From Acidobacteriota bacterium (lineage in GTDB: Bacteria; Acidobacteriota; Terriglobia; Acidiferrales; UBA7541), in the NCBI GenBank assembly GCA_013287135.1, contig JABDEK010000004.1, positions 1-64,000 of the forward strand: a DNA stretch of 64,000 nucleotides, written 5' to 3'. Position 1 is the first letter of the stretch, and every line of letters begins with the position of its first letter. The translations under genes were made by a program, and so were the position numbers. Of the stretch, positions 8,158 to 49,407 are shown in pieces. The notes beneath the pieces were generated by a model. That model saw only the letters and a program-made list of their open reading frames with translations, ran no database searches and was not told where the DNA came from.

Positions 8158-10242
8158 ATGAAGGTTCTCTACAACGTTCTCACAGAATTCGTTGACATAA
8201 AGGCAGCGCCTGCTGACCTTGCCTCGCGTCTTTCCCTCGCCGGAGTTGCTATTGATTCGGTTGAAGACTCGGCGGCCGGTCCCGTCCTGGACGCGGAAGT
8301 TACCGCAAACCGTCCCGATTGTCTCGGCCATTACGGCATCGCGCGCGAGGTTGCCGCGGTCTACCGTATGCAGCTCAAGCCGGTACAGCCAAAGCTTAAA
8401 GAAGTTGCAGACAATGCCGCGGACGCCACGCGTGTTGAAATCGAATCCCCGGACGTTTGCCGGCGCTTCACCGCTCGCATTCTGCGCGGCGTAAAAGTTC
8501 AGCCCTCACCGGACTGGCTGCGCGAACGGCTCGAGGCCATGGGCCAGAAATCGATCAATAACGTAGTAGACGTCACGAACTACGTAATGTTCGAATTGGG
8601 TCAGCCGCTGCACGCCTATGACTTCGATAAATTAAACGAACGGCGGATCGCCGTGCGGCGCGCGCGTCCAGGTGAAAAACTTTGCACGTTGGATGGTGCG
8701 GAGCGGACCCTCACGAGAGACATGTGTGTGATTGCCGACGCGACTCGCGCCATCGGAATCGGCGGTGTGATGGGCGGAACAGACACAGAGATTAGCTTCA
8801 GTAGCCACAATATTCTGCTGGAAGCCGCGTGGTTTGATCCCATTTATGTTCGACGAACCGCGAAAGCGCTCGGCCTGCGCACGGAAGCTTCTTACCGCTT
8901 CGAGCGCGGAGCCGATCCAGAAATGGCGGAGCTCGCTTCGAGGCGCGCTGCGGAATTAATTCAGCAGGTAGCCGGCGGCGAACTTTTGTCGGGCGTAGTG
9001 GATGTTTATCCCTCTCGCGAACCGGAAAAGAAAATCCAATTGGCGCGAAAAGAAATCCTGCGTGTGATGGGCGCGGATATTCCGGACCGCGGTGTGGAAG
9101 AAATTTTGAGCGCGCTCGGATTTCATCCTACCCGTGTGGATGCAAATCGTGGCAGCGACGGTTCTCTCGCAGCTGTTTGGGAATGCAAACAGGTTTCCTG
9201 GCGGCGCGATGTCACCCGTGGAATCGATCTGATTGAAGAAGTAGCTCGTCACTACGGTTACGACAAATTTCCGCCGCGCCTTCCACCCGCGAAAAAGCCG
9301 GCGCATCGTTTGCCGCACGCAGAGGCTCAGGACCGGTTGGTAGAACGCGCCATCGCGCTTGGCTATCACGAAATCGTAGAAATCCCGATTGCCGATACCC
9401 AACGCGACGCTCTGTTCCGTGAAGAAGGGATTCAACCTGCCGTAATTGGCAACCCGCTGGCGGAAGATGCATCGATTATGCGTTCGAGCGGCATCGTCAG
9501 CATGGTTCGCGCCATCGAATGGAACTTAAATCACGGAAACCGCGATCTGCGGCTGTTTGAGTTCGGCAAAAGATATGAGTTACGCGACGGAGCGCCCGTA
9601 GAATCAGCAGTTCTTACGCTGGGAGCCACTGGTTTGGCTCGCGAGAAAACAATTTATGAAACAGCACGAGAATTCGGTTTCGCAGAATTAAAAGGCGCCC
9701 TCGATCAAATTGGAGAACTAGCGGGCGGATTGGAATGGCAAGCCGGGGGACCGCCTTGGCTGTCGGCCGCACGTTCGGCTCATTTTTCTGCAAAGAACAA
9801 AGGCGAACAACTGGGCGTCGCCGGTCAACTCTCCCGCCGCCTCGCTGAGCAGTTGAAGTTGAGGCAGGAAGTATATCTAGCGGAGCTGAAACTCGAACCG
9901 CTGTACACCTGTATCGAAGCCACACGCGCGGCGCTCCGCTTCGTGCCTTGGCCGCGTTACCCTGCCGTCGAAAGAGATTTTTCGTTGGTGTTAGCCGATG
10001 GCGTCACATTTGCGCAAGTGGAACAAACGATCCGAGCGCTCGCTATCGCCGAGATTCAATCGATCGAAGCTGCTGACCTTTTTCGTGGTGGCCAGATCCC
10101 TGCCGGAAAATATTCTCTTATGATTCGAGTGAAATTCCAAAGCTCGCAAGGAACTCTTACGGACTCACAGCTGGCTGAATTCAGTTCCCGTACCGTGACT
10201 GCGCTCGAACAAAAACTCGACGCCACCTTGCGCGCAAGTTAG
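8158..10242 (+). CDS. pheT: Phenylalanine--tRNA ligase beta subunit, short form lacking the OB-type tRNA-binding domain
   Basis: This 694-aa protein aligns with PheT at its N-terminus ([20 protein letters not shown]), in the [19 protein letters not shown] segment, in the B3/B4 and B5 regions ([34 protein letters not shown]) and in a complete C-terminal FDX-ACB domain ([14 protein letters not shown]). The usual tRNA-binding (EMAP/OB) domain of about 110 residues, which normally lies between the N-terminal helix pair and the NRPDCLG segment, is absent: [20 protein letters not shown] joins directly to TANRPDCLG. The reading frame is intact, so this is a clean domain absence, possibly normal for the lineage. 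Confidence 0.95.
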
Positions 10243-10362
10243 GAACCTGACGAAAATTGCTGGGCTGCTAAGGCTGACCCAAACCATCTATTTCGCATCA
10301 ATATCATTTGCACGCTGGTGACCGATGGCCGACAATGGCGGAAGCTCAGCCGGGAGCGCAAA

Positions 10363-10641
10363 GTGAAAATAGAAATCTATGACCAAATCTATAACGTCAA
10401 CGCGGAAGGTAATGAACAATACTTTAAAGATCTAGCTGCCTACGTCGACTCCAAGATGCGTTCCATCGCCGAAGAAACGCGCATGGTAGATTCCCTGAAA
10501 GTAGCCGTGCTCGCTGCGTTAAACATCGCCGACGAAACATTTACGCTGCGCCAGCGGCAGCAGGAAATCGACGGCCCGTTGCGCAAACGCGTGGAAAAGT
10601 GCGTAGCCATGGTGGAAAAAGCCCTAGAGCACACGAACTGA
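10363..10641 (+). CDS. zapA: Cell division protein ZapA
   Basis: This 92-aa protein has the ZapA pattern: a short beta-strand start (KIEIYDQIYNV), EQYFKDLAAYVDSKMRSIAE, then a long C-terminal coiled-coil. ZapA crosslinks FtsZ filaments. The GTG at 10363 is preceded by GGGAG at six bases and matches the family's usual start; a GTG at 10318 in the same frame would add 15 residues. Position directly after pheT is a common arrangement. Confidence 0.85.
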   Translation: MKIEIYDQIYNVNAEGNEQYFKDLAAYVDSKMRSIAEETRMVDSLKVAVLAALNIADETFTLRQRQQEIDGPLRKRVEKCVAMVEKALEHTN

Positions 10642-18538: not shown

Positions 18539-20965
18539 ATGGAAACATCTTCCGCTCTTTTTGAGCTCGCGAGCGTGTCGCTAGCGTGTCGCGATCAAGA
18601 CACATTACTCAAGACTTTTGCCGCTCGAGTGGGCGCCACACTCGGAGCGCGTGCCGTGCTCGTTTGGATCGCGAATCCAACGGGCGAAGATCTGGTTTGC
18701 CGCATGCGCTGGACCGAACCCGGTGAACGCCTTCATCCGAGAGACTTGCCAGCGAGCGGAGGGATGCTGGGAATACTATATCAATCGGCCGCCACTCGAC
18801 GTTTGCCTGCCCGTGAAATCTCGGTAGAGGATCTCGAGCATCTTGACGAATTCAGCCGCACGCGCGTGAAATCTGCGCTCTATGCTTCTTTGCCAGGCGT
18901 GCAAAGACCTGAAGGGGTAGTAGAAGTCCTGAATAAACGCGCTGGAGAGTTTACCGCTGAAGACGCTCACTTTCTGGAAGAAGCCTGCCGCCTGGCGGGC
19001 GGCGCTTTAACGAATTTGGACGCGATTGAAGCCGAGCGCCATGCGCAACTCTCCACCCTCGAACGCCTCACCGCCCTTTACGATCTCGGCCGCACGTTCA
19101 CATCGACTTTAGAACTCGAAGAACTCCTTCCAATCGTCGCTGGTAAGATTCGCGACATTTTGGGGGCCGGCGCTTGCAACTTATGGCTCGCTTCTGCGGA
19201 CGGAGAACAACTTACCCTTGCGAAACAAATCGGAGAAGATCCCACAATTGAAGAAGACGCCACCGCACCGTTGAATGAAGGCCTTCTCGCCGACATCGCA
19301 CAACAAGCCAACCCCAAACTGCTCGAGGATCCCAGTGAAGAACCTGCGCTCGCCGAACGTATTAAAGCCGGAGGCGATTTCGAAATTCAATCGTGGATGG
19401 GCGCTCCCCTTCGCAAAGACGACGAAGTTCTCGGCGTCGTTGAAATAATCAACAAGTCCGACGGCACGCTGTTCAACGAAGATGATTTGTTTTTCCTTTC
19501 CAGCATCAGCGAGCAAGCTGCCGTAGCGCTGCATAACGCTAACTTGCTCGAATCCGAGCGTAAGGTTCACGCCCTCGACGCGCTTTTGAAGATTTCACAG
19601 GAAATTACCTCCACCCTGGATCTCGATCACGTGTTGACCACTGTAGTCGCGCAGTCTTCCAACGTGGTTCCCTTTGAGAGTTGTGTGATTGGATTCTACG
19701 ACCGCGGACGCTTCATCCTGGGTGCCGTGTCAGGTGAAACCGAAGTTCCCAAGACTCGGGAAATGAGCGACCTGCGCGAGCGCATGGAGTGGGTGGCCGA
19801 GCAGGAAAACCCCGTTTCGGCAAATTTGCACGAAGATGGCTGGCAATTTGACCCCGATGAAACGCGAGCGCAGGTCGTCTCGTTTCTCGAAGAGCATGGG
19901 CATCAGGGTTTCTATGGTCTGCCATTACGCGACGACCAGGGAACTCTCGGCGCGATGATTCTTCTTAGCAATGAGCCCGATTTCCTTTCAGAAAGCAATC
20001 TAGAGACGCTGGCCATTCTCGCCAGCCAGACCACCGTGGCCATACGCAATGCGCAGCTATATCAGCAAGTGCCGCTGGCGAACATCTTTCAACCGTTCGC
20101 CCAGCGAAAGAAAAAATTGATCGCGGCTATGCCCAGAAGCCGGGTAGTGGAATATGCCCAACGCGCCGGTATCGTCGGGGCCCTTCTGATACTCATTCCT
20201 TGGCCCATGCGCGTGGGCACCGACGCAACCGTAGTCCCGGCCGACCGCCGCGTCGTGAGCGCGATGGAAGGCGGCACGGTAAAACAGGTCTTCGTACACG
20301 AGGGAGATCTGGTAAAACCCGGACAAGTACTGGCGCAACTCGATGACAGCGAGGATCGCGTGAAATTGGCGGAAGCGGAGGCTTCCTTGTCTCAGGCACG
20401 CCGCGAATTGGCCGAAGCCGAATTTCGAAACGATCCTTCCGCTGCGGGGCAAGCGCAAATTCGCAACCAACTGTACTCCGCGGAAGTCGCGCTGGTGCAG
20501 CAACGTGTCAACGAAGCGCGATTGACTTCACCAATTAGCGGCATCGTGGTCACGCCGAAAGTGGAAGAAAAAACCGGCACCATGCTAAAGGCAGGCGATC
20601 CCTTTTCCGAGATAGTCGCCCAAGACCACATGGCTGCGGAAATGAGTGTTCCGGAGACAGACCTGGCCCTCGTACGGCCGGGACAAAACATAGCCCTGAA
20701 GTTGAATGCTTTCCCGACAATAACATTCAAAGGAAACGTGGAGCGCCTCGGCGCTAGGACCCATACCGACTCCGGCGACCAGTATTTTCTGGTGCGTGCT
20801 ATATTCGAAAATACTGGGGGAAATGCACGTGACGGAATGGTCGGAAGGGCGAGAATTCAGTCACATGGCGGGTGGTTCGGCAGTGGATGGTACCCGATAG
20901 GCTACGCCATTTTGCGCTCGCCATTCCGATGGATTTGGCAAAAGGCGTGGGCCTGGTTGCCGTAA
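18539..20965 (+). CDS. Triple-GAF sensor fused to an HlyD-type membrane fusion protein
   Basis: This 808-aa protein combines parts not usually joined. Residues 1-165, 170-340 and 342-510 are three GAF domains (for example LSTLERLTALYDLGRTFTST and VHALDALLKISQEITSTLDL, each ending in a QAAVALHNANL-like helix). Residues 541-558 form one membrane helix (GIVGALLILIPWPM). Residues 568-790 are an HlyD/biotinyl-lipoyl adaptor (GGTVKQVFVHEGDLVKPGQV and ARLTSPISGIVV). The topology places the GAF domains in the cytoplasm and the adaptor in the periplasm. GGGAGAG precedes the ATG. It starts a three-gene operon with a second adaptor and an M50 fusion. Cytoplasmic sensing coupled to export is inferred. 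Confidence 0.88.
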   Translation: METSSALFELASVSLACRDQDTLLKTFAARVGATLGARAVLVWIANPTGEDLVCRMRWTEPGERLHPRDLPASGGMLGILYQSAATRRLPAREISVEDLEHLDEFSRTRVKSALYASLPGVQRPEGVVEVLNKRAGEFTAEDAHFLEEACRLAGGALTNLDAIEAERHAQLSTLERLTALYDLGRTFTSTLELEELLPIVAGKIRDILGAGACNLWLASADGEQLTLAKQIGEDPTIEEDATAPLNEGLLADIAQQANPKLLEDPSEEPALAERIKAGGDFEIQSWMGAPLRKDDEVLGVVEIINKSDGTLFNEDDLFFLSSISEQAAVALHNANLLESERKVHALDALLKISQEITSTLDLDHVLTTVVAQSSNVVPFESCVIGFYDRGRFILGAVSGETEVPKTREMSDLRERMEWVAEQENPVSANLHEDGWQFDPDETRAQVVSFLEEHGHQGFYGLPLRDDQGTLGAMILLSNEPDFLSESNLETLAILASQTTVAIRNAQLYQQVPLANIFQPFAQRKKKLIAAMPRSRVVEYAQRAGIVGALLILIPWPMRVGTDATVVPADRRVVSAMEGGTVKQVFVHEGDLVKPGQVLAQLDDSEDRVKLAEAEASLSQARRELAEAEFRNDPSAAGQAQIRNQLYSAEVALVQQRVNEARLTSPISGIVVTPKVEEKTGTMLKAGDPFSEIVAQDHMAAEMSVPETDLALVRPGQNIALKLNAFPTITFKGNVERLGARTHTDSGDQYFLVRAIFENTGGNARDGMVGRARIQSHGGWFGSGWYPIGYAILRSPFRWIWQKAWAWLP

Positions 20966-20985
20966 GCAAAGAGGAAATTGCCCTT

Positions 20986-21912
20986 ATGAAACGCGCTTTA
21001 CTCGTCTTGATCGCAACCATCGCTCTTAGCGGGAACGGTTGCGACAAATCTTCAGTAGCATCTAATGCCAAGGTTGCGCCGGAAACGCCGGCAAACTCAG
21101 CTCCTTCCCAACCAACCGCAAATACGGGAACCCCGAGGCCGTCCGAACCTGGTGATATCCTAAGCATCCTTACAGTAGAACATCAGGTAGATCTCTCATC
21201 GCAACGCGATGGCGTCGTAATTTCCGTGCTGAAAGATGAGGACAACGTTGTAAACACGGGCGACATACTGGGCCACCTGGATGACCGAACTTTGCAACAG
21301 GAACTCATCAAAGCTCGCGATGATCTGAAGGTCACCGAAAACAACCTGCAATACAAAGCAGCCGAATTGAAAGCTAAAGGCGCGGCCTACCGCCGCCAGC
21401 AACAATTGCGAGAAGCAGGGTTATCAAGTCAGGCCGATCTTGAACAGGCCGAATTCGAAGCCAAAGGCGCCGAGTACGATATGCACGGATACGAAGCCCT
21501 GGTCGAAAGCGGCAAAGCGGAAATCCATCGCCTTGAAATTGAAATTGATCAAACTGCTCTGCGCGCGCCATTTTCGGGTGTAGTGGTCCGCCGTTACATT
21601 CGAGAAGGCCAAGCCATTGCAAAGGGCGATAAGTGTTTTCGCATTAGCCAACTTTCTCCCCTTCAAGTCCAATTTCAAGTTTCTGAGTTGGCTGGCCCCC
21701 GTCCTGTTGCGGGCGCGCCGGTGGGCTTGGTCTTGTTAGACGGTTCGAATCGGCCGTTGAATGCGAAGGTCGTGAAGGTCAGTCCTACAGTGGACCCCTC
21801 CAGCGACAGCTACAACGTAGTGGCCCAACTTACCGGTCCTGGACTCGAGAATCTGCGCCCCGGAATGGCCGTGCGAGTTGGATGGCCAGGAACTTCGCAA
21901 CCGAAGCCCTAA
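20986..21912 (+). CDS. HlyD/RND-type periplasmic adaptor, possible lipoprotein
   Basis: This 308-aa protein starts at the ATG at 20986 (GAGGAAA ribosome binding site). Its N-terminus (RALLVLIATIALSGNGCDKS) fits a lipoprotein signal with Cys19, although the lipobox is imperfect. A half-lipoyl domain (RDGVVISVLKDEDNVVNTGD), a helical hairpin of about 90 residues (QLREAGLSSQADLEQAEFEA) and a second half (QTALRAPFSGVVVRRYIREG) follow, then a beta-barrel. Such adaptors link inner and outer membrane components. It lies 20 bp after the GAF-HlyD gene and 15 bp before the M50 fusion. Confidence 0.88.
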   Translation: MKRALLVLIATIALSGNGCDKSSVASNAKVAPETPANSAPSQPTANTGTPRPSEPGDILSILTVEHQVDLSSQRDGVVISVLKDEDNVVNTGDILGHLDDRTLQQELIKARDDLKVTENNLQYKAAELKAKGAAYRRQQQLREAGLSSQADLEQAEFEAKGAEYDMHGYEALVESGKAEIHRLEIEIDQTALRAPFSGVVVRRYIREGQAIAKGDKCFRISQLSPLQVQFQVSELAGPRPVAGAPVGLVLLDGSNRPLNAKVVKVSPTVDPSSDSYNVVAQLTGPGLENLRPGMAVRVGWPGTSQPKP

Positions 21913-21927
21913 AAGGATTGTCGATCG

Positions 21928-24075
21928 ATGCGTTTCGGCCCCACCAGCCTTCAAGTTTCCAGCGTTCTCGCAAAAGGGCTCAAGCGCCCCAAACTCCGCG
22001 CCGACCTGCGTATCAGCGAACAGACGGTGGCGGGCGAAGTCAGTTACGTAATCAAAAACCGCGAGACCAATTCCTATAACCGCTACGGAAGCACGGAATA
22101 CCAGTTGTTGTCGCTTTGCGATGGCACGCGTACACCCGCGGAAATCGCCCGGGCCATGTCCGCCGACGACCCGGAATCGCAAACCAGCGAAGCCGAGGTG
22201 CTCGAATTTCTCGATTCCATCGAACCCACCATGTGGGAACGATCGATCGGTGAGAAAAACCTCGCGGTTTTGGAGCGAATTCGCGACGAACGCAAAGGCC
22301 GTATCGATCAGTCGAGTGTCCTTTACATCAGCTTCAAAGCTTGGAACCCGGATAAAACCCTGGCGAAATTAGACACCTATCTTTGGTGGATGTTTACAAA
22401 GAGTTTTGTGATCTTTTCATTGTTTATATTCGTCGTCGCCGTTTACCTGCTAGCGGGCGATTGGACCCGCGTTCAGCAGGACACCTCGGCCCTATATAAT
22501 TTTGCCAACAAAAGCGCGTATGACCTCTGGGTCTTCTGGATTCTCCTTCTGGGCCTAGGTGCCATACACGAATTTGGCCACGGCCTCACCTGCAAACATT
22601 TCGGTGGGGACGTCCATCAAATGGGCTTTTTGCTCATCTATTTTACTCCCGCGTTTTTCACCGACACCACCGACATCCTCCTCTTCAAAACCGGCGCTCC
22701 GCGTCAATGGGTTATATTCGCCGGAATCTGGATTGAGCTAGTAATCTGCGGTTTGGCCGCCTTGGTATGGCATTTCTCCGCGCCCGGCTCGCTGGTGAAT
22801 GATTTCTTCTACAAGATGATGCTGCTCAGTGGAATTCAGGGTGCCGTTGTTAACCTGAATCCATTGATCAAGGCTGATGGCTATTACGCGCTTTCGCAAT
22901 TCTTGAATATCGATAACCTTCGCGAAGAATCCTTCGTTTTTCTTGAGGCCTGGGTTCACAAATACATTTTCCGACGCGACATCGACCTCCCACCTGCTAG
23001 CAAGCGCCAACGACGCATTTTTTTCTTGTTTGGAGTCTCCGCCATCGTTTACAGCACCTCGCTGCTAATTCTTGTGCTTCTCTTCGTCAAAAACGTATTG
23101 GTGAGCAAAATGGGCGACGCTTGGGGCTATGTTGCAACCCTTGGCATCGTGTATTTCTTTGCCAGGAAAAGTTTGCGAAAGGCCGTGCCGGCGGCTCGCG
23201 CTTGGATACGAGACAAAAAGGAGAAATATATGGCCTGGAAGATCACTCGCGCACAGGGCGCTTGGGCGCTGGGATTGATTCTCCTATTCCTGCTACCTCC
23301 TCTTTCATCAAAGATAACCACCGACCTAGTCCTCGAACCGGGAAAAGACGCGCGGGTTAGAGCTTTGGTGGAAGGGAGAGTCCAAAAAGTGTTTGTCCAT
23401 GAAGGCGATCAAGTCAAAGCCGGCCAATTGCTGGGCGTTTTGGAGAACCCTGAAGTGAATGCCGACGTCCAATCGCTCCAGCACAAGCTGGCTATCGCTA
23501 GCAGCAACCTGCGCACTAACCAGGATCGCTCGGACCTCGGTCAAACAGCACAAGCGGTACGTGATCGTAAGCGGCTCGCGCAAGAACTGTCGGTAGGAAA
23601 GAACAAAGTGCAGGGACTCGAAATTCGATCACCCATCGATGGTACCGTCGCGACCCCTAACGTGGACCAGGAAACCGGATCATACCTGTTGGCCGGCGAC
23701 GAGTTTGCACACGTAGTCGACCGAAGCATCATGAAAGCTCGAATTCTGGTACAGGATCGCGAAGTTCAAGATGTTCAACCAGGCGCTTCCGCAAAAGTGA
23801 AAGTGTTGCCATATCCTTTTCGCACTTACTCCGGCCACATCAATAGAATACTTCCGGCTGCGGCCCTGGACCATCCCGTCACACAAACCGAAAAACTCGT
23901 GCGTTTAGGCCAGGACTTGACAAATTACCTCGCAGTCGAAATGGACGTCCCGAACTCAGACGGGTCCCTGATCGAGGGCATGACCGGTAAAGCAAAGATC
24001 ACGGGGAATGAGGAATCTTTGGCTTGGCAGGCGGGAAAAGGAATATGGCGTTGGCTTCGTTCGCAATTCTGGTAG
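21928..24075 (+). CDS. PqqD-like domain / M50 site-2-type protease / HlyD fusion
   Basis: This 715-aa protein has three parts. Residues 25-100 resemble PqqD, the RiPP recognition element (YNRYGSTEYQLLSLCDGTRT ... VLEFLDSI). Residues 150-430 are a multi-helix M50 protease core with the zinc motif HEFGH at 214-218 and the NPLIKADG motif at 311-318, both intact. Residues 445-715 are an HlyD-type adaptor (VRALVEGRVQKVFVHEGDQV and LEIRSPIDGTVATPNV). The likely job is to recognise a small peptide in the cytoplasm, cut it within or at the membrane and hand it to the periplasmic adaptor (inference). It is the last gene of the operon and is followed by a bidirectional terminator. Confidence 0.9.
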   Translation: MRFGPTSLQVSSVLAKGLKRPKLRADLRISEQTVAGEVSYVIKNRETNSYNRYGSTEYQLLSLCDGTRTPAEIARAMSADDPESQTSEAEVLEFLDSIEPTMWERSIGEKNLAVLERIRDERKGRIDQSSVLYISFKAWNPDKTLAKLDTYLWWMFTKSFVIFSLFIFVVAVYLLAGDWTRVQQDTSALYNFANKSAYDLWVFWILLLGLGAIHEFGHGLTCKHFGGDVHQMGFLLIYFTPAFFTDTTDILLFKTGAPRQWVIFAGIWIELVICGLAALVWHFSAPGSLVNDFFYKMMLLSGIQGAVVNLNPLIKADGYYALSQFLNIDNLREESFVFLEAWVHKYIFRRDIDLPPASKRQRRIFFLFGVSAIVYSTSLLILVLLFVKNVLVSKMGDAWGYVATLGIVYFFARKSLRKAVPAARAWIRDKKEKYMAWKITRAQGAWALGLILLFLLPPLSSKITTDLVLEPGKDARVRALVEGRVQKVFVHEGDQVKAGQLLGVLENPEVNADVQSLQHKLAIASSNLRTNQDRSDLGQTAQAVRDRKRLAQELSVGKNKVQGLEIRSPIDGTVATPNVDQETGSYLLAGDEFAHVVDRSIMKARILVQDREVQDVQPGASAKVKVLPYPFRTYSGHINRILPAAALDHPVTQTEKLVRLGQDLTNYLAVEMDVPNSDGSLIEGMTGKAKITGNEESLAWQAGKGIWRWLRSQFW

Positions 24076-24101: not shown

Positions 24102-24136
24102 AAAAGGGCCGCCGTTCCTGGGACGGCAGCCCTTTT
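24102..24136. terminator. Bidirectional terminator between the M50 gene and the peptide genes
   Basis: AAAAGGGC-C-GCCGT pairs with ACGGC-A-GCCCTTTT around a 7-base loop. The A-run and T-run flank both sides, so it can end the plus-strand export operon and the minus-strand peptide transcript. Confidence 0.88.
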
Positions 24137-24187: not shown

Positions 24188-24274
24188 TTAGAACTTGGTC
24201 AATGGCTTGTAGTGGTTCAACGGCTTCACTGTTCCCAGCTTCTTTCCCTTTTTCACCGGCTTTGCTTTTGCCAT
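24188..24274 (-). CDS. Small lysine-rich peptide 1 (28 aa)
   Basis: The reading frame begins MAKAKPVKKGKKLGTVKPL and continues with nine residues ending PLTKF before TAA. It is too short for routine gene calling, but an AAGGAGA ribosome binding site precedes the ATG and two paralogues (24680 and 24802) share the MAK-K-LKK-K-L-TKPL pattern. The peptide is strongly basic, with ten lysines. A sigma-54-type promoter lies 55 bp upstream. It converges on the PqqD/M50/HlyD operon, sharing a terminator, which makes it a candidate substrate of that machinery. No function is known to me. Confidence 0.75.
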   Translation of the reverse strand: MAKAKPVKKGKKLGTVKPLNHYKPLTKF

Positions 24275-24328
24275 GTTCGTAAGTCTCCTTAGAACTTTTT
24301 GTTTTCCAACTTCCTACACTGCTGCTAG

Positions 24329-24344
24329 TGCAATCTACGAACCA
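24329..24344 (-). promoter_or_regulatory. Sigma-54 (-24/-12) promoter of peptide 1
   Basis: On the minus strand TGGTTCGTAGATTGCA matches the sigma-54 consensus TGGCACG-N4-TTGCA, with GG and GC separated by exactly 10 bp. The transcript would start near 24317, about 43 nt before the peptide start. A second near-identical site lies upstream of peptide 3. Confidence 0.75.
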
Positions 24345-24460
24345 AACCAGGATCGAGTGCTCCTGGAATTCCCGCACCTGATTTAAAAGCACTTACCGGC
24401 ATTAGGCACAAATAATGAAGAACCGGCGGTGACCGAAAGTGTTTAATTTTTTGTGCTGAA

Positions 24461-24475
24461 GTTGAATAATTCAAC
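24461..24475. promoter_or_regulatory. Perfect palindrome, possible activator site
   Basis: GTTGAATAATTCAAC is a perfect 15-bp palindrome about 150 bp upstream of the predicted peptide 1 transcription start, the usual distance for binding sites of sigma-54 activators. A related but imperfect half (GTTGAAATTCTCAGC) lies at about 25027-25041, about 130 bp upstream of the peptide 3 start. Confidence 0.4.
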
Positions 24476-24575
24476 AGAATAGGCCAAAACTCCATGATGG
24501 TCGCAAAGCATCCGAACGTTCCGGAGGCATGGCCTCTAAGTCGCGGATTCGAAAACGGGTGGGGAAGTCTTAACC

Positions 24576-24606
24576 AAAAAAAAGCTGCCAACCTTTCGGT
24601 GACAGC
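24576..24606 (-). terminator. Terminator of the peptide 3-peptide 2 transcript
   Basis: On the minus strand GCTGTCACC-GAAA-GGTTGGCAGC is followed by eight T residues. It lies about 75 bp after the stop of peptide 2 and separates that transcript from the peptide 1 promoter. Confidence 0.85.
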
Positions 24607-24679
24607 CGCATTCTGTAATCGTTCTGCTAGTGGTGAGAGATCCGAATAAACCTCGCCTGTGACGCGAAGCCGTAATTAA

Positions 24680-24754
24680 CTACTTCCAAGCCGTTCGTGT
24701 GAGGGGTTTCGTTGGTTCCAGATTCTTTGCCTTCTTTAAGGGCTTCTTTGCCAT
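24680..24754 (-). CDS. Small lysine-rich peptide 2 (24 aa)
   Basis: The frame begins MAKKPLKKAKNLEPTKPL and ends with six more residues (TRTAWK) and TAG. A CGGAG sequence precedes the ATG. It shares 12 of its first 18 residues or more with peptide 3, encoded 47 bp upstream, and the same pattern with peptide 1. No promoter is visible in the 47-bp gap, so it is probably co-transcribed with peptide 3. The downstream terminator at 24576 supports a real transcript. Conservation among the three copies is in the N-terminal 18 residues, while the tails differ. Confidence 0.78.
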   Translation of the reverse strand: MAKKPLKKAKNLEPTKPLTRTAWK

Positions 24755-24801
24755 ACTTTTTCTCCGAGGGGATTGGCTCGATTGCCGAGCTCCTACACAT
24801 T

Positions 24802-24870
24802 TTACCTCAATACGATGAGGGTCTTCGTCTGCTCCAGCTTTTTTGCCTTCTTTAAAGTCTTCTTTGCCAT
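24802..24870 (-). CDS. Small lysine-rich peptide 3 (22 aa)
   Basis: The frame begins MAKKTLKKAKKLEQTKTL and ends IVLR before TAA. GGGAGA precedes the ATG at good spacing. It is the first gene downstream of a sigma-54-type promoter (24916-24931), with a leader of about 35 nt. The pattern MAKK-x-LKKAK-x-LE-x-TK-x-L is shared with peptide 2. The conserved N-terminal half with variable tail is what one expects of a leader-core arrangement, or of cationic secreted peptides; which applies is unknown. Confidence 0.78.
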   Translation of the reverse strand: MAKKTLKKAKKLEQTKTLIVLR

Positions 24871-24915: not shown

Positions 24916-24931
24916 TGCAAACATAATACCA
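24916..24931 (-). promoter_or_regulatory. Sigma-54 (-24/-12) promoter of peptides 3 and 2
   Basis: On the minus strand TGGTATTATGTTTGCA fits the sigma-54 consensus with exact GG-N10-GC spacing, followed by CTA as in the peptide 1 promoter. The two sites share TTGG at -24 and TTGCACTA at -12. The neighbouring gene at 25063 encodes a sigma-54 activator. Confidence 0.75.
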
Positions 24932-25062
24932 ATGTCAAAGAAAAACAACGCCGTCGTTAAGTTAAGGATTTAAAAGCTGTTAGAAGAATTGCGCAGTTCC
25001 ATCAGGTGCAAAGCCTGTCGTCATCTGTTGAAATTCTCAGCGGATCGATTAAAAACTCAATG

Positions 25063-26487
25063 CTATAGATTGTATTTACGACATAGATAGTTTAGACGGT
25101 TCCGATCCACGCCGAGTAATTTAGCCGCTTCTGCCCTCACTTGCTTGGCCTGCTCGAGAGCTTCTTGGAGCCACCGGCGTTCAAATGCTTCCATTTCCTT
25201 CTCCAGGTTGATTCCGCCGGAGGGCAGCCGAAACCGGTTCCGCGAATCCCGGCCGGAAGCCTGTACGATTTCACTAGGGAGGTCTTTCAGCGAGATCACC
25301 TCCCCGTCGGTCATGATAACCAGCCGCTGAATCGCGTTCTGGAGTTCCCGGACATTGCCAGGCCACGGATAGCGCTTAAGGGCCAGCATCGCATCATCGG
25401 CGATACGCTTCAAAGGGAAGCCGTTGGCGGCACAATAGACGCTCACGAAGTAATCTGTGAGCACAGGTATATCTTCCACTCGTTCGCGCAGCGAAGGCAC
25501 GAAAATCGGCACTACGTGAATACGGTAGTAGAGATCTTCGCGAAACCGTTCCTCCCGAACCATTTCCTCCAAATCTTCGTTGGTCGCGCTAATAAGCCTG
25601 AAATCCACCTTGATAGACTTTTTGCCACCCAATCGGGTAAACGACCTATCCTCGAGCACGCGCAGGAGCTTGCTCTGGAGTGCGGGCGTTAGCGTCGCAA
25701 TTTCATCGAGGAAAAGGGTGCCTTGGTGGGCTGTTTCGACCCTACCTTCTTTTGTGGCGACCGCACCCGTGAAGGCGCCTTTTTCATAACCGAAGAGCTC
25801 AGCCTCCATCAAACCTTCAGGAAGCGCAGCGCAATTCACGCTAACGAACGCGCGATTGCGGCGTGGACTTTGCTCGTGAAGAGCCCGGGCAACCAGCTCT
25901 TTGCCTACCCCGCTCTCTCCTCGAATGATCACGTTGGTGGTCGCCCGGGCCATGCGCTTGATGGAATCGAACACGTGGCTCATGGCGTCGGTCGAACCGA
26001 TCAGATCGCCATGCGCGCTCTTGCGGCTTATCTCCTGACGCAGAATGCGGTTCTCGCGCTGAATGTGTAATTTTTCAACAGCGCGCTCAAGTAGATGCCT
26101 AAGGACGTCTGTGTCGATAGGTTTAATGAAGTAGTCGTAGGAGCCTGCGTCGATCACTTTCAGTGCGGTGGCCTTCGTTTCGTCAGAACTGAGAACGATT
26201 ACAAGCGTGTCAATTTCGCTTCCCACCAGCCGGCCAAGCAGCTCGGTGCATTCACGAACTCCTGCGTCGCCGAGCGGAAGACCTAGCAGAAGAACGTCCA
26301 GTTCAGAACCTTGTAGAAGCCGATAAGCCGCTTCGAAGTCTTGCCCTTCGAACACCTCAAACTGCGATCGCAGCGCGGATGCAATCTTCGAGCGCAGGCT
26401 GTGGTCGTCATCTACAATCGCAACTTTGGGCTTTGTTACTACCGGGGTGATAGTGGTCTCCGGCGGGGAGCTGACATAAATGACCAA
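25063..26487 (-). CDS. NtrC-family sigma-54 activator with a degenerate receiver domain
   Basis: This 474-aa protein has a receiver-like domain (20-140), an AAA+ domain (160-390) and a Fis-type helix-turn-helix at the C-terminus (RAEAAKLLGVDRNRLNYLCR). The AAA+ domain has Walker A GESGVGKE, the sigma-54 contact loop GAFTGA, and TLFLDEIATL. In the receiver the acidic pair DDD (26-28) and Lys (FIKPID) are present, but the phospho-acceptor Asp is Gly69 (DVLLLGLPLGD). It is therefore unlikely to be controlled by ordinary phosphorylation. It lies directly upstream of the peptide genes with sigma-54 promoters and is the obvious candidate regulator (inference). No histidine kinase is adjacent. Confidence 0.92.
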   Translation of the reverse strand: MVIYVSSPPETTITPVVTKPKVAIVDDDHSLRSKIASALRSQFEVFEGQDFEAAYRLLQGSELDVLLLGLPLGDAGVRECTELLGRLVGSEIDTLVIVLSSDETKATALKVIDAGSYDYFIKPIDTDVLRHLLERAVEKLHIQRENRILRQEISRKSAHGDLIGSTDAMSHVFDSIKRMARATTNVIIRGESGVGKELVARALHEQSPRRNRAFVSVNCAALPEGLMEAELFGYEKGAFTGAVATKEGRVETAHQGTLFLDEIATLTPALQSKLLRVLEDRSFTRLGGKKSIKVDFRLISATNEDLEEMVREERFREDLYYRIHVVPIFVPSLRERVEDIPVLTDYFVSVYCAANGFPLKRIADDAMLALKRYPWPGNVRELQNAIQRLVIMTDGEVISLKDLPSEIVQASGRDSRNRFRLPSGGINLEKEMEAFERRWLQEALEQAKQVRAEAAKLLGVDRNRLNYLCRKYNL

Positions 26488-40580: not shown

Positions 40581-42416
40581 GTGACTGAGGTAAGGACGAG
40601 GGTGGCGAAGGGATCAGAGCGTGGCAAATTGCGCATCGGCGATGATTGGAATGCAATCCGCATTATTGCGCTCTCACAGAGCAATCCCCTCAAAGCGATC
40701 GCGGAGTTTGTCGAAAACAGTATTGATGCGCATGCCCAAAATATCGTTATCACCCGCGGTCGCGAGCACGGTGAACACTATCTAAAGGTCACGGACGACG
40801 GCGACGGCCTCCCGCGCGGTCCGAACGGGCTGCCTGACTTCAAGTACGTCGCGACGCATATCTGCGACTCGATCAAGCGGCACTTGAAATCGAACGGCGA
40901 TGGAAACGGTATACAAGGGGAGTTTGGAATTGGCCTTTTGAGCTTCTGGACTGTCGGCGACACTCTGTCGATGACTTCTAAGGGTGCCGACCAGCGCGCC
41001 TACCAGATGACCATGCGCAGAGGGGATCCTCGGTACGCCGTGAGTGCGCGGCGCGCGCTTTTTGCCGAGCAGGGCACTGAACTCCGGATCAGTCCCCTGC
41101 TGGAGGGTATTCGTACTCTGAGCGGTGAGAAGATCCAGTGGTACCTGGCCTCCGAGTTGCGTGATCGAATCCGCGGTGGGCAGCTTCGCGTAACAGTGGT
41201 AGATAGGCTTGCGCGCAAACAATATCAAGTCGAACCGCGTCAGTTCGAAGGCCGCTTGCTGCACCAGCTACCGGCAGTTCGCTCATCGTACGGCGAGGCC
41301 TATGCCGAATTGTACCTCACGGAACCAACAGAGGATTCCCGTGTTGCCCTGACACGAGGTGGCACGCGTGTGATCGCGGATATTAGTGCGCTCCCCGGCT
41401 TGGAGCGTTCACCTTGGAAGTCTCGCTACATACAAGGTTTGGTCGACGTGCCGTACCTAATCCTCACACCCGGAACGCGTTCCGGAATCGTACACGACGA
41501 GCATTACGCTGCTTTTGTCGACAGTCTGGCTAAGCTCGAGGCTCACCTGATCGACCTGATCGACGCACAGCAGCGTGCCGAAGAAGAACAGGCCAATCGG
41601 GAGTCCCTGCGTGCCATCCAACGCGCGTTTCGTGAGGCTATGCTCATTCTGCCGCGCGAAGAGTACGATTGGTTTGATATCCAGTCCCGCCCGCAGGATC
41701 CCGGCGCCGGCGAAACGCTACAACGAGGCGTCAATCCCACAGATTCGAATGAAGAGGTAGCTTCGTTGAGCGCTGCGGAACCCAAGGGAGAGACATCCCC
41801 ACAACGTCGATTCTTTGACTATGCGGGGCCTTTGCGCACAGTCGTGATTTCACCGACAACAAGCACACTCGCAGTGAAACAAAGTCGGCGTTTCCGCGCG
41901 CTGCCTCGGGACCGCTCGGGCCGGCGCGTCCAGGAGGATCTCACCTTTGCCTGGGGGATTGTGGAAGGGGGTGGCACGCTGTTGTCCACCTCGGATCAGG
42001 AAGTTGGCTTTGAGGCTCCCGATTCGCCCGTTCTAGTCCGGTTGTCTGTCACTGTTTCACAACGCGATATACGCTGCACTGCAGAGGCGTTGATCACGGT
42101 GACTGATAGTCTCGATATCTCCATGGGCGCTTCAGTCGTCAATGCGCGCGGATTGCCGGGTTACACCTTCGAACGGGCCGCTGGTGAGCTGTGGCGCTCG
42201 CGATTTGATGCCGATCGCAACTTGATCGTCGTGAACAGTGGCCACCGCGATTTTGTTTTCGCTACACGTAGTCGTGTGCTCCAGCTGCGCTATCTCGTGC
42301 GGCTCTTCGTCAAGGAGTTGGTGCTCAAGAACTTTGCCGGCATGCAGGCCGAACAAATCGCGGACCGGATGATTGAGCTCTCGCTATATGTGGAGGAAAA
42401 ATTGAGATTCTCGTGA
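40581..42416 (+). CDS. GHKL-type ATPase (HATPase_c_3, MORC/MutL-like)
   Basis: This 611-aa protein has the Bergerat-fold ATP site: N-box AEFVENSIDAHA (41-52), the G1 box VTDDGDGLPRG (70-80) and the G2 box GEFGIGLLSFW (113-123). A second domain resembles the S5-fold transducer of MutL/MORC. The C-terminal half has a beta-rich segment (VVISPTTSTLAVKQSRRF; VRLSVTVSQRDIRCTAEALI), like an Ig-type insertion, then a helical end. GTG start. No mismatch-repair gene is nearby. The neighbourhood of toxin-antitoxin modules suggests a defence or mobile role, which is inference. Confidence 0.82.
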   Translation: MTEVRTRVAKGSERGKLRIGDDWNAIRIIALSQSNPLKAIAEFVENSIDAHAQNIVITRGREHGEHYLKVTDDGDGLPRGPNGLPDFKYVATHICDSIKRHLKSNGDGNGIQGEFGIGLLSFWTVGDTLSMTSKGADQRAYQMTMRRGDPRYAVSARRALFAEQGTELRISPLLEGIRTLSGEKIQWYLASELRDRIRGGQLRVTVVDRLARKQYQVEPRQFEGRLLHQLPAVRSSYGEAYAELYLTEPTEDSRVALTRGGTRVIADISALPGLERSPWKSRYIQGLVDVPYLILTPGTRSGIVHDEHYAAFVDSLAKLEAHLIDLIDAQQRAEEEQANRESLRAIQRAFREAMLILPREEYDWFDIQSRPQDPGAGETLQRGVNPTDSNEEVASLSAAEPKGETSPQRRFFDYAGPLRTVVISPTTSTLAVKQSRRFRALPRDRSGRRVQEDLTFAWGIVEGGGTLLSTSDQEVGFEAPDSPVLVRLSVTVSQRDIRCTAEALITVTDSLDISMGASVVNARGLPGYTFERAAGELWRSRFDADRNLIVVNSGHRDFVFATRSRVLQLRYLVRLFVKELVLKNFAGMQAEQIADRMIELSLYVEEKLRFS

Positions 42417-42881: not shown

Positions 42882-43136
42882 ATGAAGACTATCACCGTAC
42901 GACTGCCCGAGCCACTGGTCGCGGACATTGAGGCGGAATCGCGGGGGCGCAAGATCTCGAAGTCAGATGTCGTTCGCGAACGGCTTGAGCGTCCGGCCCG
43001 GCAGCGCCGCCGCACTGCCTCTCTGAATGCCATTGCTGATCTCATTGGATCGGTAGATGGTTTACCGGTCGATCTAACGACGCGAAAGAAGGAATATTTG
43101 CACGCCACCGGTTATGGCCAGAAACGTCCTCGTTGA
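42882..43136 (+). CDS. Ribbon-helix-helix antitoxin of a VapBC module (1)
   Basis: This 84-aa protein begins with the CopG/Arc ribbon (MKTITVRLPEPLVADIEAES) and helix (ISKSDVVRERLERPA), followed by a basic linker and a C-terminal toxin-binding tail. It overlaps the toxin start by 23 bp, the usual coupling. It binds DNA as a dimer and neutralises the PIN toxin that follows. Confidence 0.85.
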   Translation: MKTITVRLPEPLVADIEAESRGRKISKSDVVRERLERPARQRRRTASLNAIADLIGSVDGLPVDLTTRKKEYLHATGYGQKRPR

Positions 43137-43524
43137 TGCTGGATTTGTCGTGGCGTTGCTTAGTAGCCGCGACGCTCACCACGACTGGGCCGTGACGCAG
43201 GCGTCTGAGATGCCTCCGCCTTGGTCCACGAGCGAAGCCGTTCTGTCGGAGGCTTTTCACCTTCTCGGAGAGCGCGGTGCTCCCAATCTCGGCGCCCTAC
43301 TTCGCCGCCGCGCCTTGCTCATCGCTTTCACGCTTACTGAGAACGTAGAGCCAGTCGTGAAACTGATTGAGAAATATTCTAACGTCCCAATGAGCTTGGC
43401 CGATGCTTGCGTCGTTCGCATGAGCGAAACGCTTGCCAATCCCATCGTCCTCACGACCGACGAAGATTTCCGAGTCTACCGTAGACACAGCCGGCAAGTC
43501 ATTCCTTGTGTGACTCCCGAATGA
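43114..43524 (+). CDS. PIN-domain toxin of a VapBC module (1)
   Basis: This 136-aa PIN protein has the acidic residues of the ribonuclease site: Asp8 (VLVDAGFVVALLS), Glu41 (TSEAVLSEAFHLL), Asp near LADACVVRMSE, and TTDEDFRVYRRH near the C-terminus. The second position reads VDAGF rather than VDTN, which is frequent in one VapC subgroup. It probably cleaves tRNA or rRNA when unbound. Confidence 0.86.
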   Translation: MARNVLVDAGFVVALLSSRDAHHDWAVTQASEMPPPWSTSEAVLSEAFHLLGERGAPNLGALLRRRALLIAFTLTENVEPVVKLIEKYSNVPMSLADACVVRMSETLANPIVLTTDEDFRVYRRHSRQVIPCVTPE

Positions 43525-48784: not shown

Positions 48785-48991
48785 GTGCCTACCAATCTCG
48801 CAATCGACGACCGTCTGTTGGAAGAGGCCCAGAAGGTGGGCCGACACCGGACGAAGCGGGAAACCGTCACAGTTGCGCTACAGGAGTACATCGAACATCG
48901 CAAGCAACAAGAAATCCTTTCTCTGTTTGGGAGAATTGATTACGAGCCTGGCTACGACTACAAGCGCGAGCGCAAGGCTAAGCGTATATGA
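48785..48991 (+). CDS. VapB-type antitoxin (2)
   Basis: This 68-aa protein (GTG start, AGGAGA ribosome binding site) has the VapB pattern TNLAIDDRLLEEAQKVGRHR and TKRETVTVALQEYIEHRKQQ, then a C-terminal segment (FGRIDYEPGYDYKRER) that wraps the toxin. It overlaps the toxin start by ATGA and follows a perfect palindromic operator. Confidence 0.9.
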   Translation: MPTNLAIDDRLLEEAQKVGRHRTKRETVTVALQEYIEHRKQQEILSLFGRIDYEPGYDYKRERKAKRI

Positions 48992-49407
48992 ATGTCTTGA
49001 TAGACACATCGGTTTGGTCCCTTGCACTTCGTCGAAAGAACGAGAGTCTCAGCACAAACGAAAGATTCCTAGTGGCCGAGTTGTCTGAACTCATTCGAGA
49101 AGGCCGAGCGCGAATGATCGGATTAGTTCGGCAAGAGCTCCTCTCGGGCATAAAGGCAACGGAACAGTATGAAAAATTGAGGCTCCATCTTCGCTCCTTT
49201 CCAGACGAGGTTGTCGACACCTCTGACTACGAAGAAGCGGCGAAGGCCGGCAATCGTTGCAGAGCAAAGGGAGTCGTAGTATCGATTGTGGACATTTTTT
49301 TATGTGCGGTCGCGAACAAACGGCTGTGGACGATCTTCACCACTGATCCTGATTTTTCAAACTACGCAAAAGTGCTTCCCCTTCGTATTCACGCGCCCCG
49401 AAGATAG
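48988..49407 (+). CDS. VapC-type PIN ribonuclease toxin (2)
   Basis: This 139-aa protein has the four acidic PIN residues: Asp6 (VLIDTSVWSLALRR), Glu in RQELLSGIK, Asp in IVDIFLCAVA and Asp in TTDPDFSNYAKV. Coupled to its antitoxin by ATGA. The family cleaves RNA in a sequence-specific way. Confidence 0.92.
   Translation: MNVLIDTSVWSLALRRKNESLSTNERFLVAELSELIREGRARMIGLVRQELLSGIKATEQYEKLRLHLRSFPDEVVDTSDYEEAAKAGNRCRAKGVVVSIVDIFLCAVANKRLWTIFTTDPDFSNYAKVLPLRIHAPRR

Follow-up and report, generated by a model that had tools for sequence, protein, structure and literature searches.

Micropeptide genes and their neighbors

The window analyzed here, a 64-kb stretch of acidobacterial DNA, carries three tiny lysine-rich genes between an export operon and a response regulator gene. 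Promoter and enhancer entries are motif-search results.

18539..20965, plus strand: three GAF domains followed by an HlyD adaptor (family scans)
20872..21912, plus strand: HlyD/RND-type periplasmic adaptor (TIGR01730 above cut-off)
21928..24075, plus strand: 715-aa fusion of a predicted RRE (PqqD-like), an M50 site-2 protease, and a MacA/HlyD adaptor, convergent with the peptide genes
24102..24136, minus strand: intrinsic terminator behind micropeptide 1
24188..24274, minus strand: micropeptide 1, 28 aa, MAKAKPVKKGKKLGTVKPL plus tail NHYKPLTKF (family HMM E 4.5e-12 / 1.9e-7; orthologue alignment)
24329..24344, minus strand: putative sigma-54 -24/-12 site of micropeptide 1, TGGTTCGTAGATTGCA, 54 bp before the ATG
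24459..24476, minus strand: putative palindromic enhancer (UAS) of micropeptide 1, TGTTGAATTATTCAACTT, 114 bp upstream of the -24 element
24680..24754, minus strand: micropeptide 2, 24 aa, MAKKPLKKAKNLEPTKPL plus TRTAWK (family profile), second gene of a two-gene unit
24802..24870, minus strand: micropeptide 3, 22 aa, MAKKTLKKAKKLEQTKTL plus IVLR (family profile)
24916..24931, minus strand: putative sigma-54 -24/-12 site of the micropeptide 3-2 unit, TGGTATTATGTTTGCA, 45 bp before the ATG
25025..25042, minus strand: putative enhancer (UAS) of the micropeptide 3-2 unit, CGCTGAGAATTTCAACAG, 93 bp upstream of the -24 element
25063..26487, minus strand: NtrC-type sigma-54 response regulator with receiver, AAA+, and Fis HTH domains (Pfam/NCBIfam-type family scans)

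The three frames (28, 24, and 22 codons) agree in position, length, strand, and sequence with their description in an earlier note on this DNA, and each is preceded by a Shine-Dalgarno-like stretch, as that note had claimed. They share the leader MAKK-x-LKK-x-KKL-x-x-TKPL, and none has a match in Pfam or NCBIfam scans. Micropeptide 1 has its own promoter and its own terminator, while micropeptides 3 and 2 form a single transcription unit with one promoter; micropeptide 2 lies 47 bp behind micropeptide 3 and lacks a sigma-54 site of its own. The window contains the strict leader motif three times, and 30 Markov-1 surrogates of 64 kb contain no copy, bearing out the judgment that such a set is unlikely by chance.

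Orthologues of micropeptide 1 occupy the same position in three related genomes (G004, G015, and G019). Among orthologous first copies from four genomes, DNA identity is 93% in the leader, 42% in the tail, and 96% in the terminator, which confirms the proposed pattern of conserved N termini with differing ends and marks the tail as a quickly evolving cassette with a conserved element on either side. Counted over 27 family members, differences in the leader at codon positions 1, 2, and 3 number 1381, 563, and 2058, so that position 3 is favored and position 2 avoided. Given this pattern and the conservation of the orthologues, neither the frameshifted frames nor the substitutions without codon-position bias that the earlier note had named as counterevidence were found. 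Elsewhere in the window, two ORFs (43114-43524 and 48988-49407) look by eye like PIN-domain (VapC-type) toxins, and the start of a 611-aa ORF (40581-42416) looks by eye like a GHKL-type ATPase.

A dispersed family with sigma-54 promoter motifs

Profile searches place the micropeptides in a large, previously unnamed family of putative peptide precursors in soil Acidobacteria, with more than 50 peptides in relatives. Searching relatives, a check that had been proposed for this locus, recovered the family. A profile built from the three window peptides found it in 15 of 61 related genomes (8 hits in G002, 12 in G024), with best E values to other genomes of 2e-9, and a broader leader profile found members in 16 of 89 genomes of the same taxonomic family. 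In 395 other genomes drawn evenly from the phylum, the leader profile gave no match at E 0.001; we therefore rejected a phylum-wide spread of the window-type leader, and divergent peptide types accompany divergent exporters instead. A viral origin was also rejected, as viral contigs scanned with the peptide profile yielded no relative.

A typical member consists of MAKKTLKKAKKLEATKPL followed by a tail such as TIVGVGRQ, IRLAK, RRK, IQLGYHKK, or TVFLNR. Genomes carry many copies with different tails, scattered in trans, and these scattered copies have no conserved neighbor gene apart from SET-domain genes (see below). Leaders are constrained and tails hypervariable; in other clades the tails are tandem repeats (genes at L097:8550, L095:8546, L087:3369, and L088:6499 [minus]; units LQRGT, TALQR, LQRAS, and LQRGAGV). 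In the L097 tail, 8 different DNA versions encode the 13 LQRGT units, and third codon positions account for 144 of the 156 pairwise differences; in L095, all differences among the 8 TALQR units are at third positions. The units in both genes were picked by their amino acids, yet within each gene they follow one another with hardly a break. For L087, the tail has a match to the Pfam pentapeptide-repeat model (E 2e-7). Longer tails at four loci (L061:6331-6570, L051:6514-6651, L050:4684, and L058:5321) consist of type VI Hcp-like stretches or Gly-rich GAGAGK(V/I) segments, that of L061 with a weak PF05638 match (E 0.06). One leader-like stretch, DKKAKKLEASKSLIVVR (G000:C105:4291-4338, locus L062), has no start codon in reach and is possibly a decayed copy.

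Most family micropeptides have a sigma-54 -24/-12 site 41 to 62 bp ahead of the start codon. Of 799 short ORFs that follow a ribosome binding site, 39 show this promoter motif, and micropeptides account for 35 of the 39; at a distance of 40 to 70 bp the comparison is 35 micropeptides versus 4 of ∼750 other short ORFs. A motif search places an enhancer palindrome of the GTTGAA-N4-TTCAAC type 92 to 128 bp upstream of the -24 element. An enhancer matrix learned at the exporter loci recurs at 13 of 27 scattered copies at a score of at least 14 bits, a level reached in no shuffled sequence and in 1% of genomic stretches. Scattered copies without an enhancer match come mostly from a different genus (G024, G036), whose exporter locus also has a different half-site, GGGGGAAATATTCCCC. 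When the genome that contains the window was searched by pattern for more enhancer sites, the hits were at chance level (122, versus 134 in the control). At the motif level, then, the family has both the -24/-12 promoter and the upstream enhancer of a sigma-54 regulon, and the linked NtrC-type regulator is the likely activator of the peptide promoters. Sigma-54 control of the export operon and of the regulator itself was rejected, since no good site lies upstream of them in the window or at nearly all other loci tested.

Linkage to a predicted RRE-protease-adaptor fusion

The 715-aa protein is predicted to start with a RiPP-recognition-element (RRE) fold, which spans about residues 19 to 111. 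Its N-terminal 93-residue domain, modeled alone (pLDDT 89), has its best structural matches in leader-bound lasso-peptide RREs (Z 10.0 and 9.4), TigE (8.9), and PqqD (8.1), and the N terminus of one homologue scores above the Pfam PqqD threshold. The membrane part carries the protease motifs HEFGH and NPLIKADG: H214, E215, H218, and D317 are invariant in 29 homologues, which keep HExxH and the second metal-ligand motif NPLxKxDG. Like the RRE fold, the intact protease motif is a prediction. Among curated models, the M50 part comes closest to the daptide intramembrane metalloprotease NF041824 (E 4e-53, below its cut-off), and the C-terminal part has a MacA-type adaptor fold (Z 19).

The gene set encoding the GAF-HlyD, HlyD, and RRE-M50-HlyD proteins recurs at 24 loci in acidobacteria, some of which are cut off by the end of the contig. 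Where the contig extends far enough, most loci also have the convergent sigma-54 response regulator. Micropeptides lie behind the protease gene, between regulator and export operon, at 22 of the 24; at L083 and L086, the remaining pair, either the contig stops just past the protease gene or the little sequence left beyond it yielded none. Within the genus, the RRE-protease occurs in exactly the 11 of 20 genomes that have leader peptides (11/11 versus 0/9; Fisher p = 6e-6), and co-occurrence also holds across the taxonomic family (p = 4e-9). In G036, a draft that is 79% complete, peptides are present and the RRE-protease was not found. Divergent exporters pair with divergent peptide types (KKLEKKVPL, KKEIxKAQTL, KTLKPxK, LRG repeats, and LQR repeats). 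When six peptide types, assigned by eye before the tree was built, were placed on the RRE-protease phylogeny, they required 5 changes, the minimum possible (shuffled mean, 14), and peptide type tracks the phylogeny without exception. A scan for sigma-54 sites with Lys-rich ORFs at 56 distant M50 loci (Planctomycetes, Zixibacteria, Bdellovibrio, Streptomyces, and others) found no micropeptides. At L035 (3601-4056) a STAS-domain, anti-sigma-antagonist-like gene is divergent from the GAF-HlyD operon, with the same placement in L037, L042, L047, and L054; this gene is absent from the window. A known anti-phage system was rejected: neither peptide nor exporter has a PADLOC match, and the regulator's match is through its generic AAA+ part only.

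In several relatives (G004, G009, G011, G019, G024, and G029), genes with a SET domain (PF00856, E about 1e-18) lie beside or directly downstream of the peptides. The SET-domain lysine methyltransferase genes in such positions are as follows.

L036:8651-9100, SET gene
L063:8741-9208 and 10114-10620, SET genes
L196:2415-2840, SET gene
L197:2343-2765, SET gene
L037:8908-9337, SET gene
L056:7194-7757, SET gene

In the window the peptides have no SET gene beside them, and the genome it comes from has two SET genes, both away from any peptide gene; we thus treat lysine methylation as a lead in relatives, not at the window locus. More generally, the window holds no modifying enzyme.

A candidate RiPP-like system and its alternatives

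We consider it probable that the products of the three genes are precursors in a RiPP-like, leader-directed peptide system with putative recognition, cleavage, and export. Leader/tail architecture, promoter and enhancer motifs, linkage, and co-occurrence are results at the level of sequence, as is the resemblance to RiPP precursors, which are short and have a conserved leader and a variable core; the RRE domain of the linked maturation protein is a predicted fold. We infer the remaining steps, from activation to product role. The phosphorylated regulator would bind the palindromic enhancer and switch on precursor genes, here and in trans at the scattered copies. The RRE at the N terminus of the M50-HlyD protein would bind the leader, and the site-2-protease part would cut at the membrane, probably near the conserved leader end (T/V)K(P/T)L. 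The HlyD adaptors, together with an outer-membrane channel, would then let the tail out of the cell as a short peptide, which may act as a signal or antimicrobial, and in some relatives a SET enzyme may methylate peptide lysines. The earlier note had offered two readings, of which leader plus core is strongly supported by the conserved leader, the variable or repeat tails, and the linked protein that combines a predicted RRE fold with a site-2 protease and an adaptor for export; its other reading, cationic secreted peptides, may also hold. The sigma-54 promoters, the enhancer, the convergent RRE-protease-exporter operon, and the copies scattered in trans go beyond what that note had noticed. 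The main gap in this mechanism is a conventional pump: the locus has neither an outer-membrane factor nor a pump of the ABC, MFS, or RND type as a constant member.

Some tails have only 3 to 4 residues (RRK, IVLR), short for a product, which we count against this explanation, as we do the window's lack of a modifying enzyme and the peptides of G036, where no RRE-protease was found. Such tails, conservation concentrated in the N terminus, and strict linkage to the RRE protein would also suit peptides that are not exported and act as stress-induced regulators in the cytosol or at the membrane surface, the basic N terminus docking on the RRE to gate an HlyD/M50 envelope machine while the tail drifts. 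We regard this as unlikely: repeat tails hold their amino acids while their codons vary, and many different-tailed copies per genome, dispersed in trans, fit substrates better. SET-enzyme methylation has been reported for chlamydial histone-like proteins, and the high lysine content and the SET genes adjoining several copies invite a comparison with nucleic-acid-binding, histone-H1-like proteins. That reading leaves the exact RRE-M50-HlyD co-occurrence, the RRE fold, and the cophylogeny unexplained, and most copies, including those of the window, have no SET neighbor, making it very improbable. We give equally little credence to whole cationic peptides that keep their leader and are secreted or surface bound, with some other protein as substrate of the M50 part. 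In favor of this are the second reading of the earlier note and the lack of a GG or similar classic cleavage site; against it, the site-2 protease has its catalytic residues intact and is joined directly to the RRE. Spurious intergenic ORFs, a suspicion that rests on their very small size and the empty Pfam and NCBIfam scans, were rejected with near certainty by conservation, codon bias, promoters, synteny, and co-occurrence: these are real genes.

Among known systems, the best reading is that the closest arrangement is the RRE-site-2-protease of daptides, without daptide chemistry. In daptides, leader removal from MpaA precursors is assigned to an RRE-fused site-2 protease, MpaP (PMC10036551). 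Shared with these are an RRE fused to an intramembrane site-2 protease (here below the NCBIfam cut-off, with NF041824 scoring 180.8 bits against 300) and several short precursors with a conserved N-terminal motif. The micropeptides lack the invariant C-terminal Thr and the ELExMEAP leader motif, and five flanking genes scanned gave no oxidoreductase (oxidative decarboxylase), aminotransferase, MpaM-type N,N-dimethyltransferase, or ABC match; with C-terminal Thr, leader motif, and enzymes absent, this is not a daptide. The protease here also carries a C-terminal HlyD adaptor, and its precursors are dispersed and, by their promoter motifs, sigma-54 controlled. Maturation of the epipeptide YydH/LiaK likewise involves an M50 metalloprotease acting on a RiPP precursor (NF058609, E 1e-10), but the score is 41.8 bits against a cut-off of 225 and no radical SAM enzyme is found among the scanned neighbors. 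NHLP/NHLM bacteriocin export shares an HlyD-type adaptor serving leader peptides; the HlyD parts here score 24 to 29 bits against a cut-off of 156, the leader differs, and there is no peptidase-ABC protein. The PEP-CTERM/PrsR regulon comprises many dispersed sigma-54 genes whose products share one processing signal. A linked PrsR-like NtrC regulator and dispersed sigma-54 genes with a shared putative processing signal are seen here as well, but the regulator scores 420 bits against a cut-off of 502.6, and the signal is an N-terminal basic leader with proposed RRE-M50 rather than exosortase processing.

A search of the open-access literature found no description of this system. It is conceivable, though we hold this more tentatively than the leader-directed reading itself, that Acidobacteriota have a new RiPP class: dispersed, sigma-54-induced precursors with hypervariable or pentapeptide-repeat cores, one RRE-site-2-protease-HlyD fusion that would recognize, cut, and export them without a conventional pump, and SET tailoring in some lineages. 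If SET enzymes do methylate the peptides, this would be protein-lysine-methyltransferase chemistry, for which the open papers searched held no RiPP example. For a phylum with few known peptide products, an orphan micropeptide family is now joined to a regulator, a promoter, an enhancer, and a probable maturation and export machine, raising the testable question of whether a single protein of this RRE-protease-adaptor type can serve numerous unlinked precursors in cleavage as well as export.
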